DNA of 64,000 bases from Marine Group III euryarchaeote CG-Bathy1. GTDB lineage: Archaea > Thermoplasmatota > Poseidoniia > MGIII > CG-Epi1. Within the stretch, counting starts at the first letter, position 1. Every line of letters begins with the position of its first letter. Under the pieces are notes generated by a model. It had not been told where the DNA came from. It ran no database searches and saw only the letters and a list, made by a program, of their open reading frames with translations. This document shows, piece by piece, positions 226 to 39,349 of this stretch. The translations under genes and the position numbers were made by a program. The DNA is taken from positions 1-64,000 of the forward strand of contig MIYU01000017.1 in the NCBI GenBank assembly GCA_001875425.1, read 5' to 3'.

Positions 226-1059
226 TTAGCCCCCCAGTAATACAAAATCTAATTTGTCAGCGAGAAAACGTATGTAAACATCAGTAAAGCAAACCCAGAA
301 AAGAGAAAACCATGCCCATTTCATATGACTTTTATTGAGGCAACTTACACAGTCGTAAGCCTTTTGCTGAATCTTTGGTTTTTTGACTATTCTATCTGCA
401 TACCCTCCGATTAAATGTCTTAAAGAATGACAACCGAATGTATATCCCCCTAGTAAAATCACATTCAAAGTGAGAACGATAGTTCCGACACCTATGCCGA
501 AATCACCTTCGAATGGTTTACCGTTAAACCACATTGAAAGCCATGCATCATAAGCTAAAATAAAAATAATAATAATTGCGAAATATAACGTATATCTATG
601 AAGATTTTGAAGAATGAGGGGCATGGAATTTTCACCCCAATAACTATTCCTAGGTTCGCCAACGGAGCAGGCAGGTGGATCTGCCCAGAAAGCCTTGTAG
701 TAAGTACCTCTGTAATAGTAGCAAGTAAGTCTGAAACCGGCAGGCGCCCACAATATTAGAAAAGCTGGAGAAAAGGGAAGCTGGTCTGGCCAAAATGTTG
801 GTTTTTCAATACCGAAAATAGGCTCATGTGTACCATAAAATTCCGGAGAATAAAGTGGTGAAAGATAGTTGGCACCGTTACCATCATAGTAATAATTAGT
901 TCCTTGAAATGCTGCCAAGGTCATATAGATTATAGCAGTACCTAAACCGAGAGCCACGAGTAACGGTTGAACCCACCACCAATCAGTTCTACGTGTTGCG
1001 AAAATGCCTTCATCGCCAGGGATAGCACAAGGTGCATTATTGGACATTTCATCTTCCAT
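226..1059 (-). CDS. Succinate dehydrogenase membrane anchor, mycobacterial Sdh1 (Rv0249c) type
   Basis: This is a 277-residue membrane protein with about five predicted helices, near residues 27-51, 94-112, 155-177, 186-207 and 247-266. The signature segments TCYYYRG, HRYTLYFA and GCHSLRHLIGG match, as I recall them, the long single-subunit anchor of actinobacterial Sdh1 rather than classical SdhC/SdhD pairs. It should hold the SdhAB dimer at the membrane and pass electrons to quinone; conserved histidines in the HRYT and CHSLRH segments could bind heme. It sits 7 nt upstream of sdhA. The start at 1059 has a TATA-like box 25 nt upstream and no Shine-Dalgarno, so a leaderless mRNA is likely. 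A second in-frame ATG lies at residue 5. Confidence 0.82.
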   Translation of the reverse strand: MEDEMSNNAPCAIPGDEGIFATRRTDWWWVQPLLVALGLGTAIIYMTLAAFQGTNYYYDGNGANYLSPLYSPEFYGTHEPIFGIEKPTFWPDQLPFSPAFLILWAPAGFRLTCYYYRGTYYKAFWADPPACSVGEPRNSYWGENSMPLILQNLHRYTLYFAIIIIFILAYDAWLSMWFNGKPFEGDFGIGVGTIVLTLNVILLGGYTFGCHSLRHLIGGYADRIVKKPKIQQKAYDCVSCLNKSHMKWAWFSLFWVCFTDVYIRFLADKLDFVLLGG

Positions 1060-1108: not shown

Positions 1109-1765
1109 TTATTGAGAAATAATTTCATTCAAGCGTTGATAACCATTCCGTATTGTTAATTCAGAAACACCCACTATCTTTGCGATGATTGATTGACTTC
1201 TCCTATCTTTTTCAAGTTTTGAAGCGAGGTAGATAATTGTGCCTATGACAGTATTGGGAGAAAGACCGTCACTAAAATTATGTTTATTTGCAAGATTCAA
1301 AATATCTTCACATCTTTCAAGGGTACGACGTTCCAATCTCAAATCGGAGCTAAAACGATTTAAGAAAACGGACAAATCATGTGGGGGAAGTTGGAAATTT
1401 AAAGATTTAGAATAAATTTTTTGAAGTCTAATTATTTCTTTTTTGGAAACGTCCGAGGCTTTCGAAATATCATCTAAAGTAATTGCAAGATTGTGGATTC
1501 TACAAACAATACAGACCATAGTTGTAGAAACTTTTTCAGTGTCTCTGCCTTTGATAAGACCTTTTTTGTGAACGTCATAAAATAAATCCATTGAAGAAGT
1601 GACGAGTTCTTTTTGAATTCGAGAAGGGAGTGGAAGGGATTTGGAAATATTCCTTATAGTTTCATGAGCTTTTGAAGTAGTTTGGTTTTTTGGTTTTTTT
1701 GGAGTGATTGAGATATCTGATTTTGGTTTATAATTTTTCCATTCTGGCCCCCCGTGAAAGTTCAT
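1109..1765 (-). CDS. Transcription initiation factor TFB paralogue lacking the N-terminal zinc ribbon
   Basis: A 218-residue TFIIB-like protein. It opens at the GPEW motif (residues 6-9), which in ordinary TFBs follows the zinc ribbon (residues 74-77 of the full-length TFB at 38342-39349). There is no CxxC pair anywhere. Two cyclin-fold repeats follow, about residues 30-115 and 120-215. The C-terminal helix-turn-helix SELTIRNGYQRL parallels TEVTIRSRYKEM of the full TFB, so BRE/TBP contact is probably kept. Without the ribbon, docking to the polymerase should be weak, so a modulator or competitor role is possible (inference). Its ATG overlaps the gar1 stop as ATGA. gar1-tfb adjacency is common in archaea, so this sits at the ancestral tfb locus. 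Confidence 0.85.
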   Translation of the reverse strand: MNFHGGPEWKNYKPKSDISITPKKPKNQTTSKAHETIRNISKSLPLPSRIQKELVTSSMDLFYDVHKKGLIKGRDTEKVSTTMVCIVCRIHNLAITLDDISKASDVSKKEIIRLQKIYSKSLNFQLPPHDLSVFLNRFSSDLRLERRTLERCEDILNLANKHNFSDGLSPNTVIGTIIYLASKLEKDRRSQSIIAKIVGVSELTIRNGYQRLNEIISQ

Positions 1766-1986
1766 TTGCCGTAGATCTCCTTGCCGATTAATTCAGTGAT
1801 ACGTACACCTTTTTTGGGAGCGATTAATAGATAAGGTTTTTTGACAGACCCGAAAACGTCTATTACTTTTCCAAGTTCCCTACCTTTGTAATTGTAAACT
1901 CGTGAATGTACAGCCACCATACTGGCAGCAGGAACGACTACTGTGTTTTTTTCAGTGGCATGTAATACAGTTCCTAAATTTTTCAT
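1762..1986 (-). CDS. gar1: H/ACA ribonucleoprotein subunit Gar1
   Basis: A 74-residue small beta-barrel protein, the usual size for archaeal Gar1. The pattern VYNYKGRELGKVIDVFGSV followed by a KKPYLLIAP strand is typical of the Gar1/Naf1 fold. Gar1 joins Cbf5, Nop10 and L7Ae in H/ACA guide RNPs that make pseudouridine in rRNA. An AGGA motif lies about 7 nt before the ATG. It is 8 nt downstream of sucD and overlaps the TFB paralogue by 4 nt, so sucC-sucD-gar1-tfb looks like one transcription unit. Confidence 0.85.
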   Translation of the reverse strand: MKNLGTVLHATEKNTVVVPAASMVAVHSRVYNYKGRELGKVIDVFGSVKKPYLLIAPKKGVRITELIGKEIYGK

Positions 1987-1994
1987 AATTTTTC

Positions 1995-2861
1995 CTAATT
2001 GAGTATTTTGGATAAAGTCTCACCTATTAAAGCGGGATTTTCTGCAACATGGATACCGGCACCCCTCATGGCTTCGACTTTGGCATCTGCAGTCCCCATA
2101 CCTCCTGAGATGATAGCGCCTGCGTGACCCATGCGTTTACCAGGAGGTGCAGTTCTACCAGCAATAAAACCTACAATTGGTTTTGTAACAGAGGATTTTA
2201 CATATGATGAAGCTTTTTCCTCTGCATTACCACCTATTTCTCCAATCATGATTATAGCGTCTGTTTCTGAATCGTTTTCAAATGCTTCTAAGCAATCTAT
2301 GAAAGTAGTTCCTATTACTGGATCACCTCCTATTCCTAAACAAGTAGATTGACCTAGACCTATTTCACTGACCTGATTGACAGCCTCATATGTTAATGTT
2401 CCAGAACGTGACACAATACCTATTCTACCTTTTTTGTGAATATGGCCTGGCATGATTCCTACTTTACCAACTCCTGGAGTTATAATTCCTGGACAATTCG
2501 GCCCAATTATGCGTACGTCTTTATCTTTAGAATAATCTTTCAACTTAACCATATCTAATGCCGGGATTCCTTCTGTTATTACTATAATTAATTCGATATC
2601 AGAATCTATACTCTCTTTGATTGCGGAATAAGCAAATGCTGGTGGAACAAAAATACAGGAAACGTTTGCCCCTAATGTTTTGGCATCTGAAATAGTATTG
2701 AATACTGGTACACCGAAAACATCAGAACCTCCTTTCCCTGGTGTAACGCCTGCTACGATGTTCGTTCCATAATCGAGCATATGTTCAGTGTGGAATTGGC
2801 CATTTTTTCCAGTTATACCTTGAATTAGGATTTTACTTTCTTCATTGAGCCAGATACTCAT
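1995..2861 (-). CDS. sucD: Succinyl-CoA synthetase (ADP/GDP-forming) alpha subunit
   Basis: A 288-residue protein with the family's usual length and order. An N-terminal CoA-binding Rossmann domain begins with [18 protein letters not shown]. The catalytic phosphohistidine lies in [10 protein letters not shown] near residue 246. With SucC it interconverts succinyl-CoA and succinate with nucleotide triphosphate formation, the TCA step just before succinate dehydrogenase. Its ATG overlaps the sucC stop by 4 nt. The sdh operon lies just beyond gar1-tfb on the same strand, so two consecutive TCA steps are encoded within about 4 kb. Confidence 0.96.
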
Positions 2862-4027
2862 TCAGAACCCTCCAAAGAAGAGATAGCCACCCGAGCGCCT
2901 TCGTCCATATCAGATACGGCAGTTAATTGTAAACCCGATTGATTTAGTAAATCCCTGCCCAATTCTGAATTTGTTCCAGATAGACGGACTATGAGTGGTA
3001 TAGTCAAATCTACATCTTGGGCTGCTGAAATGATACCTTCAGCTACGAAATCACATCTCATTATTCCTCCGAAAATATTAACAAAAATTGCTTTTACTTC
3101 TGGATCTGAAAGTATCACTCTGAAACCTTCAGATATTTGATCCGGTGTAGCTCCACCTCCAACGTCCAAAAAATTAGCTGGTTCTCCACCATGTAATTTA
3201 ATTATATCCATAGTAGCCATTGCTAGGCCAGCTCCGTTTACCATACAGCCGATTTCACCATCTAATTTGATATAATTCAACCCCGCTGAAATAGCTCTGA
3301 CTTCTAGGGGGTTATCTTCTGATGAATCCCTAAGTTCGAAAACATCCGGATGTCTGAATAAAGCTGAATCATCAAAATTGACTTTGGCATCTAAAGCTAT
3401 AATATCATTAGATTTAGTGACTACTAATGGATTGATTTCTACCAAGGAGCAATCCAGATCGTAAGCCATTTTTGAGAGGCTTTGCATCAATTTTATCATT
3501 ACAGATATTTGATTTTCTGTTAGACCTAACTTGATAGAAATACGTTCAGCTTCTTTCAAATCAATTGTACCATCTGACTCAATATATAATTTCAAAATTT
3601 TATCAGGTGTGTCTTTTGCAACTTCTTCTATCTCTACGCCCCCTTCGGTAGAAATCATAAAAACAAATTTTTCTGATTCCCTGTCCAAAACTAAGCCTAA
3701 GTATAATTCATTTGAAATTTCACAACCTTCTTCTAAGTAAATTTTACGAACTAAAACTCCTTCTTTTTCTGTTTGAGGAGTGATTAATCTGGAACCTAAT
3801 AATTTATCACAAGCAGATGATACTTCATCTTGACTTTTACAAACGACAATGCCTCCCCCCTTGCCTCGCCCCCCTGCGTGTACTTGGGCTTTAACGACCC
3901 ACAAATCACCACCTAGAGAATTGCAAGCAGATGAGTAATCTGTATTTTTATCAATTAGAACCCCTTGAAGTGTTGGAATTTCATACTTTCTGAATATTTC
4001 TTTTGCTTGATATTCGTGAATATTCAT
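2858..4027 (-). CDS. sucC: Succinyl-CoA synthetase beta subunit
   Basis: A 389-residue protein starting [15 protein letters not shown], the classic SucC N-terminus. An ATP-grasp domain fills the first 240 residues ([13 protein letters not shown] loop, then LVEINPLVV). The C-terminal CoA-ligase domain contains [13 protein letters not shown] and [12 protein letters not shown]. It supplies the nucleotide and succinate sites of the SucCD heteromer. It leads the sucCD-gar1-tfb operon. A TATA-like box 24-25 nt before the ATG and the absence of a Shine-Dalgarno suggest a leaderless transcript. It is divergent from the L10e gene. Confidence 0.96.
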
Positions 4028-5296: not shown

Positions 5297-6075
5297 TCGT
5301 TAGTAATTCTAGTACCGATGATTTTTTCATCCAAGGAAGAAGGGAAACCTGATTGACCTAAAATCCAACATTCAGAGTATTTTGAAATCTCAGCAGCAGA
5401 TTCCAATTTGAATTTCATACCTCCTGTGACGTCGCGTCCGAAAAGTCTCCATTTACGTCTGAGCATTTTCTTTCGCATTTTGCGATCAATTAAAGGTACC
5501 AATTCAGCACCTTCTTCTTCGGGATCTCGGTCCATAACACCTGGATGATTGACTACAAATATGGTTTTTGCAGGTTTGAAATATCGAGCGAATTCTACCA
5601 TTAAAGTATCTCCACTTAGGATAGAGAATCCCTTAGTACTATCACCAACAACGTCACCGCAAGAAACTGGCAATTTATTTTCATCGAGAAGAGATTGAAA
5701 ACCTTCTTCTGGCCAATCAATTAAATTATCATTCATTGTAATCATAGTTTTTGAAGGTAAAATCGGCTTAGGTTCCAAACCTGCAAGACTCAACCGATTG
5801 CAGACTATTTTGTTCAGTTGTTTTATCCTATCTATTGTTTCGGATACTGCTTCCATTTGACGCCTGGATCTAGTTTGACCATCAGCCAGAGAATGCTCGC
5901 TAGCAAGAGGGTGTCCGAATGAGCCTGCACCATGTATTAGAATTGTTTTCATCCGTAAACTAGACAATTTTTTTGCTAAATCTGTAATTACAGACATACG
6001 TGGAGTTGGATCTGGAGAATCTTTGACAGTTATTAGAGAACCGCCCCATTTAACAAGAACTAAATTGTTTTTCAT
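5293..6075 (-). CDS. Isopentenyl phosphate kinase
   Basis: A 260-residue amino-acid-kinase-fold protein. The ATP-binding KWGGSLIT lies near residue 9, the HGAGSFGH motif near 49-56 carries the catalytic histidine typical of IPK, and RDVTGGMKFK lies near 215. It phosphorylates isopentenyl phosphate to isopentenyl diphosphate in the archaeal variants of the mevalonate pathway, feeding ether-lipid and isoprenoid synthesis. HMG-CoA reductase (16054-17325) and a squalene synthase are encoded in the same window. It starts 3 nt after the DUF711 stop, and the two are probably co-transcribed. Confidence 0.9.
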   Translation of the reverse strand: MKNNLVLVKWGGSLITVKDSPDPTPRMSVITDLAKKLSSLRMKTILIHGAGSFGHPLASEHSLADGQTRSRRQMEAVSETIDRIKQLNKIVCNRLSLAGLEPKPILPSKTMITMNDNLIDWPEEGFQSLLDENKLPVSCGDVVGDSTKGFSILSGDTLMVEFARYFKPAKTIFVVNHPGVMDRDPEEEGAELVPLIDRKMRKKMLRRKWRLFGRDVTGGMKFKLESAAEISKYSECWILGQSGFPSSLDEKIIGTRITND

Positions 6076-6078
6076 ATT

Positions 6079-7113
6079 TTATGACTCCGGATCCATAGCA
6101 GAACAATCCAATAAATACGGAGATTCTGAACGCACCGTATCACCTATTCGGCATCCGGGCATCGGGAATAATCTTGCACTTAAGGGCTTGTTCTTCTCAA
6201 TGGAGATATCTGTGACCTTTTTTAGTAACTGCGCTAGAGTGATTTTACTTATATTTCCAGGCAATGGGACGGTGTCCAATCCTGTACCGCACCGACCTGC
6301 ATATTCCAATAAATGACTTATTTTTAACAAATTATTATTAACTAAATCGACTAATTTTTTGTCTTCCATGATAGCAAACATGACGCCGCGATACCCTATT
6401 TGTGAAACCGGAAGAGAACGTATTTTATGAGTTAATGATTGTATTGTTAATTCTGCACCTTCTGAACCTAACGATGAACCATTTAGTTCAACTACATCTG
6501 CCACGGAACTTTGATAATCTAAAGGAGGAGCAATACTTGGATCCATGCCGAAATAATTCCAACTAGACTCCTGACATAGGGATTCTAAATTTAACAAATC
6601 CTCCGTTAATTCATTTGGATCGCCATTATTTTCTACGAGATCGCCCGTAATTTCTAAAGCTAAAGAAACTCCTTCTTCGTTTGCAAAAGCTGCAGGAAAA
6701 AAGGGATTAGAAGGTAAAACATTAGAGATTCCCGCAAAGCGTAAATTATTCATTGGATTCGTATTTGAAATATCGATGATGGCTGTTGCAACTGCAGCAT
6801 GATCATAATCCATCCACGAACTGAAAAATGAGCGTTCAGTCATATTTATTGCTTTAACGACAGTCGAGAGTGATGCAGGAATACAGGGTCCGAAACTTAT
6901 GAAATCTACTTGAGATGCGAGAGTTATCTTTTCAATTTCTAGCGCCCTAGAGGGGAAATCTTCTTGGGAGCACCAAGATTCCCATGGATGAGTAGCGATA
7001 CGGACAAATTGAATATCATAATTATTGTTTCGGAGTTTCTCAGCAGCTTCGGTTGCTAAAGATATAGCTTTCATAAAATCAGCGGAAAACCCCGTTACTG
7101 CTCTAATCTTCAC
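6079..7113 (-). CDS. DUF711 family (UPF0210-like) protein
   Basis: A 344-residue protein carrying DUF711 hallmarks: GTGLDTVPLPGN near residue 282 and a C-terminal KPLSARLFPMPGCRIGDTV segment. Bacterial DUF711 proteins usually sit beside an ACT-domain protein; none is seen here. The family is structurally glycyl-radical-like and its function is not settled. This copy is shorter than the roughly 450-residue bacterial form. It starts with GTG at 7113 behind a TATA-like box about 25 nt upstream (7134-7141), so it is probably leaderless, and it heads a two-gene unit with IPK. Confidence 0.75.
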   Translation of the reverse strand: MKIRAVTGFSADFMKAISLATEAAEKLRNNNYDIQFVRIATHPWESWCSQEDFPSRALEIEKITLASQVDFISFGPCIPASLSTVVKAINMTERSFFSSWMDYDHAAVATAIIDISNTNPMNNLRFAGISNVLPSNPFFPAAFANEEGVSLALEITGDLVENNGDPNELTEDLLNLESLCQESSWNYFGMDPSIAPPLDYQSSVADVVELNGSSLGSEGAELTIQSLTHKIRSLPVSQIGYRGVMFAIMEDKKLVDLVNNNLLKISHLLEYAGRCGTGLDTVPLPGNISKITLAQLLKKVTDISIEKNKPLSARLFPMPGCRIGDTVRSESPYLLDCSAMDPES

Positions 7114-7148
7114 AATAATACAACGCAGGCGACTTAATATCTTGAACG

Positions 7149-8222
7149 TTACTTATTCGAAAGTGAAGAAGAAAGTAAACGATGAAAATGGTGGACGCCC
7201 GTTTCTTTAGTTGGAGAATAGCGACCACTGACATATATCTCTGATTGAATGCCTCTTTGTACTTTTTCAACGATATCCTGATCTTCTGCTTCGACCTTAT
7301 CTAAATCGGCACCTGCACCCTTATGAAGTAAATCTTTATTCCAAACATAACCGTAGTAAACTATCTTAGTTTTATCAGCGCTAATAGGGACAACTATGTT
7401 TACAGAAAGCCCCCATGGATAGAAATTTAACATAATATTTGGAAATAGCCAAAAGTAGTAAGCTGCAACTTTCAAACCATAATCAGGAGATGAAGATGGT
7501 AAAACGAAATGGGATTCGTTTTCTCTGGCGATCCCTATTTGTAAAACTCCGTTATCAAATAACTCTGTTCGATATTCATCGTAATCTAATGTATCGTGTA
7601 AATCAGTATGAACGAAGGGGATGTGGAAACCTTCGAGATAATTATCTACATACAATGCCCAATTAGCATTGACATCATAACTTCGATAACTAGATTGATT
7701 TTCTGAGAATTTTTCTATAGGCATCCAACTTAATTTGTAATCTAAATAAGAGACATAATTTTCAAAATCTGATACGTTAAGACCTGTGAATAAAAGCCCT
7801 TTCCAATCTTTGAGAGGAAATGATTTAAGATTGTCATCTGAAGAAGGGAAATCTTTCACTCCTTCAAATTCTGGCATATTTGAAAAATGGCCATCTAATG
7901 AAAAAGTACGACCATGATAACCACATCTCAAAACAGAAGTGGAACATGCTTCATCACAGATTAACATCCCTCTGTGCGTACAAATATTAGAAAGGCAAGA
8001 GTAGCTTTCATCGTTTTTGGTAAGAATCATAGATTCGTTTAAAATTTGTTCTAGATAATGTAATGGTATAACATTGTTATTTGTGAAGCTGGAAGTATGT
8101 GTTGCAAAAAGCCACTGATTTTTGAAAGAAGAAATGACTTTTTTAAAAATTCTTGTATCTTTGTAAATGGAAGAAGGAAGTGTCTTAGCCTTTCGAATGT
8201 CTTTATCGACGTTGTAATCCAT
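7149..8222 (-). CDS. Rieske [2Fe-2S] oxygenase, alpha-subunit-like
   Basis: A Rieske non-heme iron oxygenase. The cluster ligands are C96-x-H98 and C115-x2-H118 (numbered from an upstream TTG/ATG frame at 8267). The mononuclear iron segment NWALYVDNYLEGFHIPFVH supplies the N-D-ExxH-type residues. I prefer the ATG at 8222, residue 16 of the longer frame. A GGTG motif is just upstream, and the protein then begins MDYNVDKDIRKAKTLP, the usual N-terminus of this family. The substrate is unknown: quaternary-ammonium, aromatic and lipid substrates are all known for the family. No reductase gene is nearby. It is divergent from an MFS transporter that could move its substrate. Confidence 0.85.
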   Translation of the reverse strand: MDYNVDKDIRKAKTLPSSIYKDTRIFKKVISSFKNQWLFATHTSSFTNNNVIPLHYLEQILNESMILTKNDESYSCLSNICTHRGMLICDEACSTSVLRCGYHGRTFSLDGHFSNMPEFEGVKDFPSSDDNLKSFPLKDWKGLLFTGLNVSDFENYVSYLDYKLSWMPIEKFSENQSSYRSYDVNANWALYVDNYLEGFHIPFVHTDLHDTLDYDEYRTELFDNGVLQIGIARENESHFVLPSSSPDYGLKVAAYYFWLFPNIMLNFYPWGLSVNIVVPISADKTKIVYYGYVWNKDLLHKGAGADLDKVEAEDQDIVEKVQRGIQSEIYVSGRYSPTKETGVHHFHRLLSSSLSNK

Positions 8223-38341: not shown

Positions 38342-39349
38342 CTATACGTGAATATCTATATTCAAAAACTTAGCCATCTCTTTGTATCTACTTCTGATAG
38401 TGACTTCAGTTAAATCTGCAGCTTTTGCAACATCTTTCTGTTTTCTTCTTTCATTGTTGATGATAGAAGCGATGTAAATCGCTGCAGCAGCTAATGAAAT
38501 TGGAACAGAATTGGTTAGTGGGACGTCCTGTGCTGCTCTTAACAAATCACGTGCAGCAGTTTCAACTTTAGGAGTTAATTCCAATTTAGAACAGATTCGT
38601 GGTAAATAATCTTCTGGCATAGGTGGCATTGAATGCATTTTCAAGGCCTTTACCATTACTTGATAAGTACGTGAAATTTCCTTTCTGGAATATCTGCTGT
38701 GACGACTTATTTCAGTTAATGTTCTAGGAATACCTTCTTGTCTGCATGCAGCATACAATGCAGCACATGCAACCATTTCAATTGCTCTACCACTTAGAGA
38801 CTGTTGCTGTATTGCTTTTCTGTAAATAAATGCTGCAGCTTCCTGAATTCTTCTAGGAAGTTTTAGATTAGTAGCTACGGCCTGCATTTCTCTCATTGCA
38901 ACTGCCATATTTCTTTCAGCCGATTTAGATGCTCTAGCTCTTCTCTGCCATTTTCTCATTCTGAAAAGCATAGATTGATTCTTATTGGAAATCGCTCGAC
39001 CGTAATAATCTCTATTAGTTGGAGATATTTCAGTAGATAATCCTTTATCTGGCAAAGTTGCAGACATTGGTGGACCTCCTCTAGCTAAAGCGTTTTCTTG
39101 CTGCATATCGAAAGCTCTCCATTCTGGACCTTGATCTACAATATTATCTTCTAAAACAAGACCGCAATCTGCGCAAATAACTTCTGCGTGACTGTAATCT
39201 CTTTTCAATCGGCTACTAGAACACTCTGGGCATGATAGTGTTGTTTCTACATTTTCTTGATTTTTCTTTGGTTTAGCGACCGATTCATTCCAACCTCTTT
39301 TGGTTTTTTCTGGCGAATCCTTACTAGAATCTTTTGATTTTTTCGGCAT
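38342..39349 (-). CDS. tfb: Transcription initiation factor B (full-length TFB)
   Basis: A 335-residue factor. A lysine-rich 35-residue leader precedes the zinc ribbon (C40, C43, C59, C62). The B-reader motif GPEWRAFD starts at 74, and two cyclin repeats follow (about 135-230 and 235-335). The C-terminal helix-turn-helix TEVTIRSRYKEM contacts the BRE. It recruits RNA polymerase to TBP-bound promoters. A GGAG motif 5 nt before the ATG and a TATA box at 39399-39406 imply a leader of about 28 nt. It is the canonical counterpart of the ribbon-less paralogue at 1109-1765. Confidence 0.96.
   Translation of the reverse strand: MPKKSKDSSKDSPEKTKRGWNESVAKPKKNQENVETTLSCPECSSSRLKRDYSHAEVICADCGLVLEDNIVDQGPEWRAFDMQQENALARGGPPMSATLPDKGLSTEISPTNRDYYGRAISNKNQSMLFRMRKWQRRARASKSAERNMAVAMREMQAVATNLKLPRRIQEAAAFIYRKAIQQQSLSGRAIEMVACAALYAACRQEGIPRTLTEISRHSRYSRKEISRTYQVMVKALKMHSMPPMPEDYLPRICSKLELTPKVETAARDLLRAAQDVPLTNSVPISLAAAAIYIASIINNERRKQKDVAKAADLTEVTIRSRYKEMAKFLNIDIHV

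Follow-up and report, generated by a model that had tools for sequence, protein, structure and literature searches.

Why does the TFB gene beside gar1 encode a protein without the part that recruits RNA polymerase, and what could such a protein do? In TFBs the zinc ribbon recruits the polymerase, the linker region enters it, and the BRE is read by the second cyclin repeat (PMC7289017). The gene under study lies on the minus strand at positions 1109-1765 of the window, i.e. the whole stretch of 64,000 nucleotides analysed here. It starts with ATG and encodes a TFB3-type protein of 218 aa with two cyclin repeats (Pfam PF00382 twice, E 2.3e-24). The product begins with MNFHGGPEW, five residues preceding GPEW (residues 6-9), and shows no match to Zn_Ribbon_TF (PF08271), which is found in the full-length TFB at 38342-39349 (-) (E 2.7e-18). 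On all these points the original prediction was right. Its statement that the protein contains no CxxC pair was correct as regards the ribbon, but one literal CxxC (CIVC, residues 85-88) is present within a cyclin helix. The NCBIfam TFB model matched only from position 124 on, with a score of 122 bits, below its cut-off of 384. The short N-terminus is not due to a mis-start, because the reading frame extends upstream of the ATG by 9 codons without any Cys and the gene overlaps gar1 by ATGA (1762-1765 (-); gar1 stop TGA plus tfb start ATG).

The neighbourhood of the gene is well conserved. The intact gar1 (H/ACA RNP subunit; 1762-1986 (-)), which overlaps the tfb start, is adjoined by two conserved neighbours named by inspection, a sucD-like succinyl-CoA ligase alpha gene (1995-2861 (-); 67-74 % identical in relatives) and a sucC-like succinyl-CoA ligase beta gene (2858-4027 (-)). 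The order sucC, sucD, gar1, tfb was recovered in 13/13 named relative contigs examined, all from Marine Group III (MGIII) euryarchaeotes (CG-Epi1, UBA136, UBA169, ALOHA bins and the single-cell genome AG-343-J07), and most relatives also share the overlap between the tfb ATG and the gar1 stop. The downstream gene (226-1059 (-)) had no NCBIfam match and by inspection probably encodes a succinate dehydrogenase membrane/CCG-type subunit; its counterpart in relatives is situated ~1.6 kb further on. In one relative (L073) a convergent gene for a 527-aa putative surface protein (5701-7284 (-)), absent from the window, lies between the tfb3 and sdh-like genes. That the gar1-tfb adjacency is old, as had been proposed, was borne out: a TFB adjoins gar1 in 29 of the 30 Thermoplasmatota gar1 loci examined, and nearly all of these TFBs are canonical. 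One gar1-linked canonical TFB (L120, genome G134) has repeat 2 in another frame, which we regard as a frameshift or sequencing error and not as a ribbonless case. At another locus (L169, genome G126) the gar1-linked TFB is followed, ~1 kb downstream, by an ORF of 144 codons (753-1184) that has one TFIIB-like repeat.

The source genome, itself of Marine Group III, is a MAG of 1.04 Mb (79 % complete, 5 % contamination) and the single genome of its genus in our comparison, to which the family adds 20 genomes in two other genera. It has three TFBs. The window contains a second, full-length paralogue, TFB2 (38342-39349 (-), 335 aa), with zinc ribbon and all other parts, and the canonical TFB1, the main TFB of the genome, is encoded outside the window (contig C12, 68.4-69.3 kb). 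The idea that the ancestral gar1 locus carries the reduced form and another locus the full one therefore needs amending: a reduced TFB does occupy the gar1 locus and a canonical full TFB is found elsewhere, but the canonical gene is the one on C12, the full-length TFB of the window being a second paralogue. In the TFB tree, MGIII sequences fall into TFB1 (canonical), TFB2 and the gar1-linked TFB3, and the TFB3 clade including the ribbonless protein received support of 100/99. The terminal branch of this protein measures 4.86 changes per column (0.24 for TFB1 and 0.14 for TFB2 of the same genome) and is 2-3 times longer than those of its sister TFB3s; owing to this long branch, its exact placement in the tree should be taken as unsure. 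Orthology is nevertheless settled by synteny, and the check by tree and synteny assigned the protein to the MGIII gar1-linked TFB3 group. Searches of collections of genome contigs and viral contigs with the protein itself returned no close relatives.

As regards TBP, genome G000 encodes two divergent second copies besides the canonical one (C2:12764-13273 and C20:2857-3384; L156 and L157), the number in most relatives being one. Identity to the copy of another genus reaches 97 % for the C20 gene, compared with 89 % between the canonical TBP and that of G001, and the C20 gene may represent either transfer or MAG contamination.

To see how the N-terminus differs from those of related gar1-linked TFBs, we aligned them and found the CxxC...CxxC ribbon in 14/14 relatives with a complete N-terminus, belonging to two sister genera; a fifteenth, whose tfb N-terminus is cut by the contig end, is not included in this count. 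The original prediction had held that a ribbon in close relatives would speak against a ribbonless gene. The relatives do have it, but this does not rescue the gene in the window, as a ribbon in another frame can be dismissed: there is neither room nor remnant between gar1 and the ATG. In relatives the ATG is followed by 25-28 ribbon codons and then the GPxW codons, and the source genome instead reads ATGAACTTTCACGGGGGGCCAGAATGG. The junction, at 1739-1765 (-), consists of ATGAAC followed by TTTCACGGGGGGCCAGAATGG (MNFHGGPEW), and can also be written ATGAAC-TTTCACGGG. Judging from this alignment, the ribbon was evidently lost in the source lineage by a clean in-frame deletion directly after the ATG, since all 14 complete relatives keep it at the same locus. 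In the TFB1 group of the tree the source genome branches outside the two other genera, which makes loss in its lineage the simplest reading. A second in-frame loss of ~21 alignment columns removed the B-linker with the near-universal Trp of KWQ (approximately 1664-1678 (-), around residues 30-34); GPEW is kept and the reader/linker region is down to ~20 residues. The TFB3s of relatives have ~28-38 residues between GPxW and the linker Trp, far fewer than canonical TFBs, and for this reason the B-reader was already mostly lost when the ribbon went, the ribbonless state being the last step of an older reduction, taken in one lineage.

Is the gene still maintained? Given the base composition of the gene, 7 % of codons would be expected to be stops, and 217 codons without a stop would have P ~1e-7 if the sequence were neutral and saturated, which argues that selection acted on the gene for most of its divergence. 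A recently disabled TFB3 heading for loss, as the missing ribbon and linker, the accelerated evolution and the restriction to a single lineage might suggest, is thus hard to reconcile with a frame of this length free of stops and frameshifts; both deletions are in frame, third positions are AT-rich (low GC3) as in the neighbouring genes, and the start overlap with gar1 is kept. We consider such a remnant improbable. Still far less credible is that an error of assembly or sequencing took out the ribbon. The sequence does come from a partial MAG with some contamination and without a second genome of its genus, but an error would have to comprise at least two independent in-frame deletions at domain boundaries and to leave the flanking gar1 intact. 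The ribbonless TFB at gar1 is real, well anchored and mildly surprising, although within MGIII this form is known from one MAG.

The predicted structure had an overall pLDDT of 85.5, with residues 1-26 disordered and a confident model from residue 28. Its best PDB match was 1D3U chain B (rmsd 1.9), the TFB core on TBP and BRE+TATA DNA. 1D3U and 1AIS contain the same two-repeat core, but as laboratory truncations, whereas here it is the product of a natural gene; the general factor TFB/TFIIB shares the two repeats and also has a ribbon, B-reader and B-linker. We defined 33 near-universal columns, each at least 90 % conserved across all other TFBs compared. The ribbonless TFB keeps 18 of these, whereas the other TFB3s in the comparison each keep 28-33, and the columns lost include all four ribbon Cys and the deleted linker Trp. 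Repeat 1 retains 8/15 near-universal residues and repeat 2 retains 8/10; the numbers are small and the apparently better conservation of repeat 2 is suggestive only. In the helix-turn-helix of the C-terminal repeat (RRSQSIIAKIVGVSELTIRNGYQRLN, 1124-1201 (-)), the BRE-reading element of known TFBs, E202, T204, R206 and Q191 are kept, and within and after the E-V-T-x-R signature V203 is replaced by Leu and K210 by Gln.

Reduced TFBs of several kinds occur elsewhere. The closest are the MGIII gar1-linked TFB3s (CG-Epi1 MIZA01000020, AG-343-J07), which lie at the same locus, belong to the same clade and have the start overlap and the cyclin core in common with our protein but keep the zinc ribbon and KWQ linker. 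A parallel to these relatives is the gar1-linked TFB of genome G106 from another family (L109, 1640-2458), which also has a ribbon and no B-reader; a canonical TFB is encoded elsewhere in that genome, and its sibling genomes still have the canonical TFB at gar1. By comparing counts of TFIIB repeats and ribbons across genomes we also came upon genus g50. Counts alone do not show ribbonlessness, as divergent TFB3 ribbons escape PF08271 at a threshold of 1e-7, and the g50 loci (L165, L166 and L167 in G118, G120 and G093) were read directly: all 3/3 genomes have a TFB-like gene with two TFB cyclin repeats, no ribbon and an open frame of 234-241 codons. Like the MGIII gene it stands beside full TFBs. 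In 2/3 genomes it follows a MoaD-like gene; it is not gar1-linked and forms a clade separate from MGIII TFB3, and is therefore of independent origin. The closer g50 pair gave dN 0.056 and dS 1.06 (dN/dS ~0.05), which indicates strong purifying selection. Genus g50 is probably Thermoplasma, two of its genomes presumably being T. volcanium and T. acidophilum. Two further candidates were set aside, a 197-aa core from Nitrosopumilus (L093) that is a frameshifted full TFB, and L096 (G130), which is masked by N. In the literature searched, which covered few subscription papers, we found no account of a ribbonless archaeal TFB, including the Thermoplasma-like gene. The well-studied Sulfolobus TFB3 is likewise a reduced paralogue without B-reader/B-finger beside full TFBs, but what remains of it is the other half, with the ribbon present and the BRE-binding C-terminal HTH missing. 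It competes for polymerase with TFB1 and is capable of activation in trans (PMC2246294, PMC5817253). In Arabidopsis, AtBRF5 is a naturally occurring protein of the TFIIB family that lacks the N-terminal zinc domain (PMC7865254), but it has a single cyclin repeat and belongs to the eukaryotic Brf family.

Additional TFBs are generally interpreted as activators comparable to alternative sigma factors. For the present protein we tentatively favour, at somewhat below an even chance, a different role, that of a TFB3 orthologue reduced to its TBP/BRE-binding core and acting as competitor or repressor of full TFBs at some promoters. As the descendant of a third TFB kept at gar1 throughout MGIII, the core would dock on TBP-DNA at some promoters; lacking the ribbon, reader and linker, it could not bring in RNA polymerase, and would therefore act against the full TFBs, competing with TFB1 and TFB2 for the TBP-DNA it occupies, perhaps with some promoter preference. 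This is consistent with the synteny, the TFB3 clade and the open frame, with the conserved columns of repeat 2 and the match to 1D3U chain B, and with the precedent of a maintained ribbonless TFB in the Thermoplasma-like genus. However, the long branch would fit relaxed constraint too, the signature Val and the following Lys are substituted, TBP binding could be impaired by the 7/15 near-universal residues missing from repeat 1, and the case comes from one genome.

The same long branch, together with the 18/33 near-universal residues kept, might also point to a cyclin-fold/HTH protein that has left initiation and, no longer a partner of TBP, has taken on a different DNA- or protein-binding role. 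This we hold to be unlikely, as the fold best matches a TBP-bound TFB core and a good part of the HTH signature survives. The core could instead mark promoters for which the ribbon comes in trans from a full TFB or some other factor, the mirror image of Sulfolobus TFB3, which is an activator acting jointly with TFB1 (PMC2246294, PMC5817253, PMC7289017), and the TFB3s of relatives, already short of most of the B-reader, do resemble that protein. But two TFB cores would need to share one TBP-DNA site, and the source genome, with ~20 % missing, yielded no stand-alone TFB-type ribbon above the family cut-off; the weak PF08271 matches in it look Rpo12-like and S27e-like. We give this arrangement little credence.

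If the competitor reading is true, a TFB that naturally lacks the polymerase-recruiting part would serve as an inbuilt negative factor acting at the TBP-TFB-DNA stage, an idea that the apparent Thermoplasma case opens to testing in a cultured organism. Core-only TFBs might even form a recurrent, overlooked class of archaeal regulators that at least twice shed their polymerase-binding parts and were kept as TBP-dependent promoter competitors, a generalisation that we regard as doubtful. The MGIII locus itself displays the steps of the reduction, from a canonical TFB to a TFB without B-reader and to the TFB core alone.
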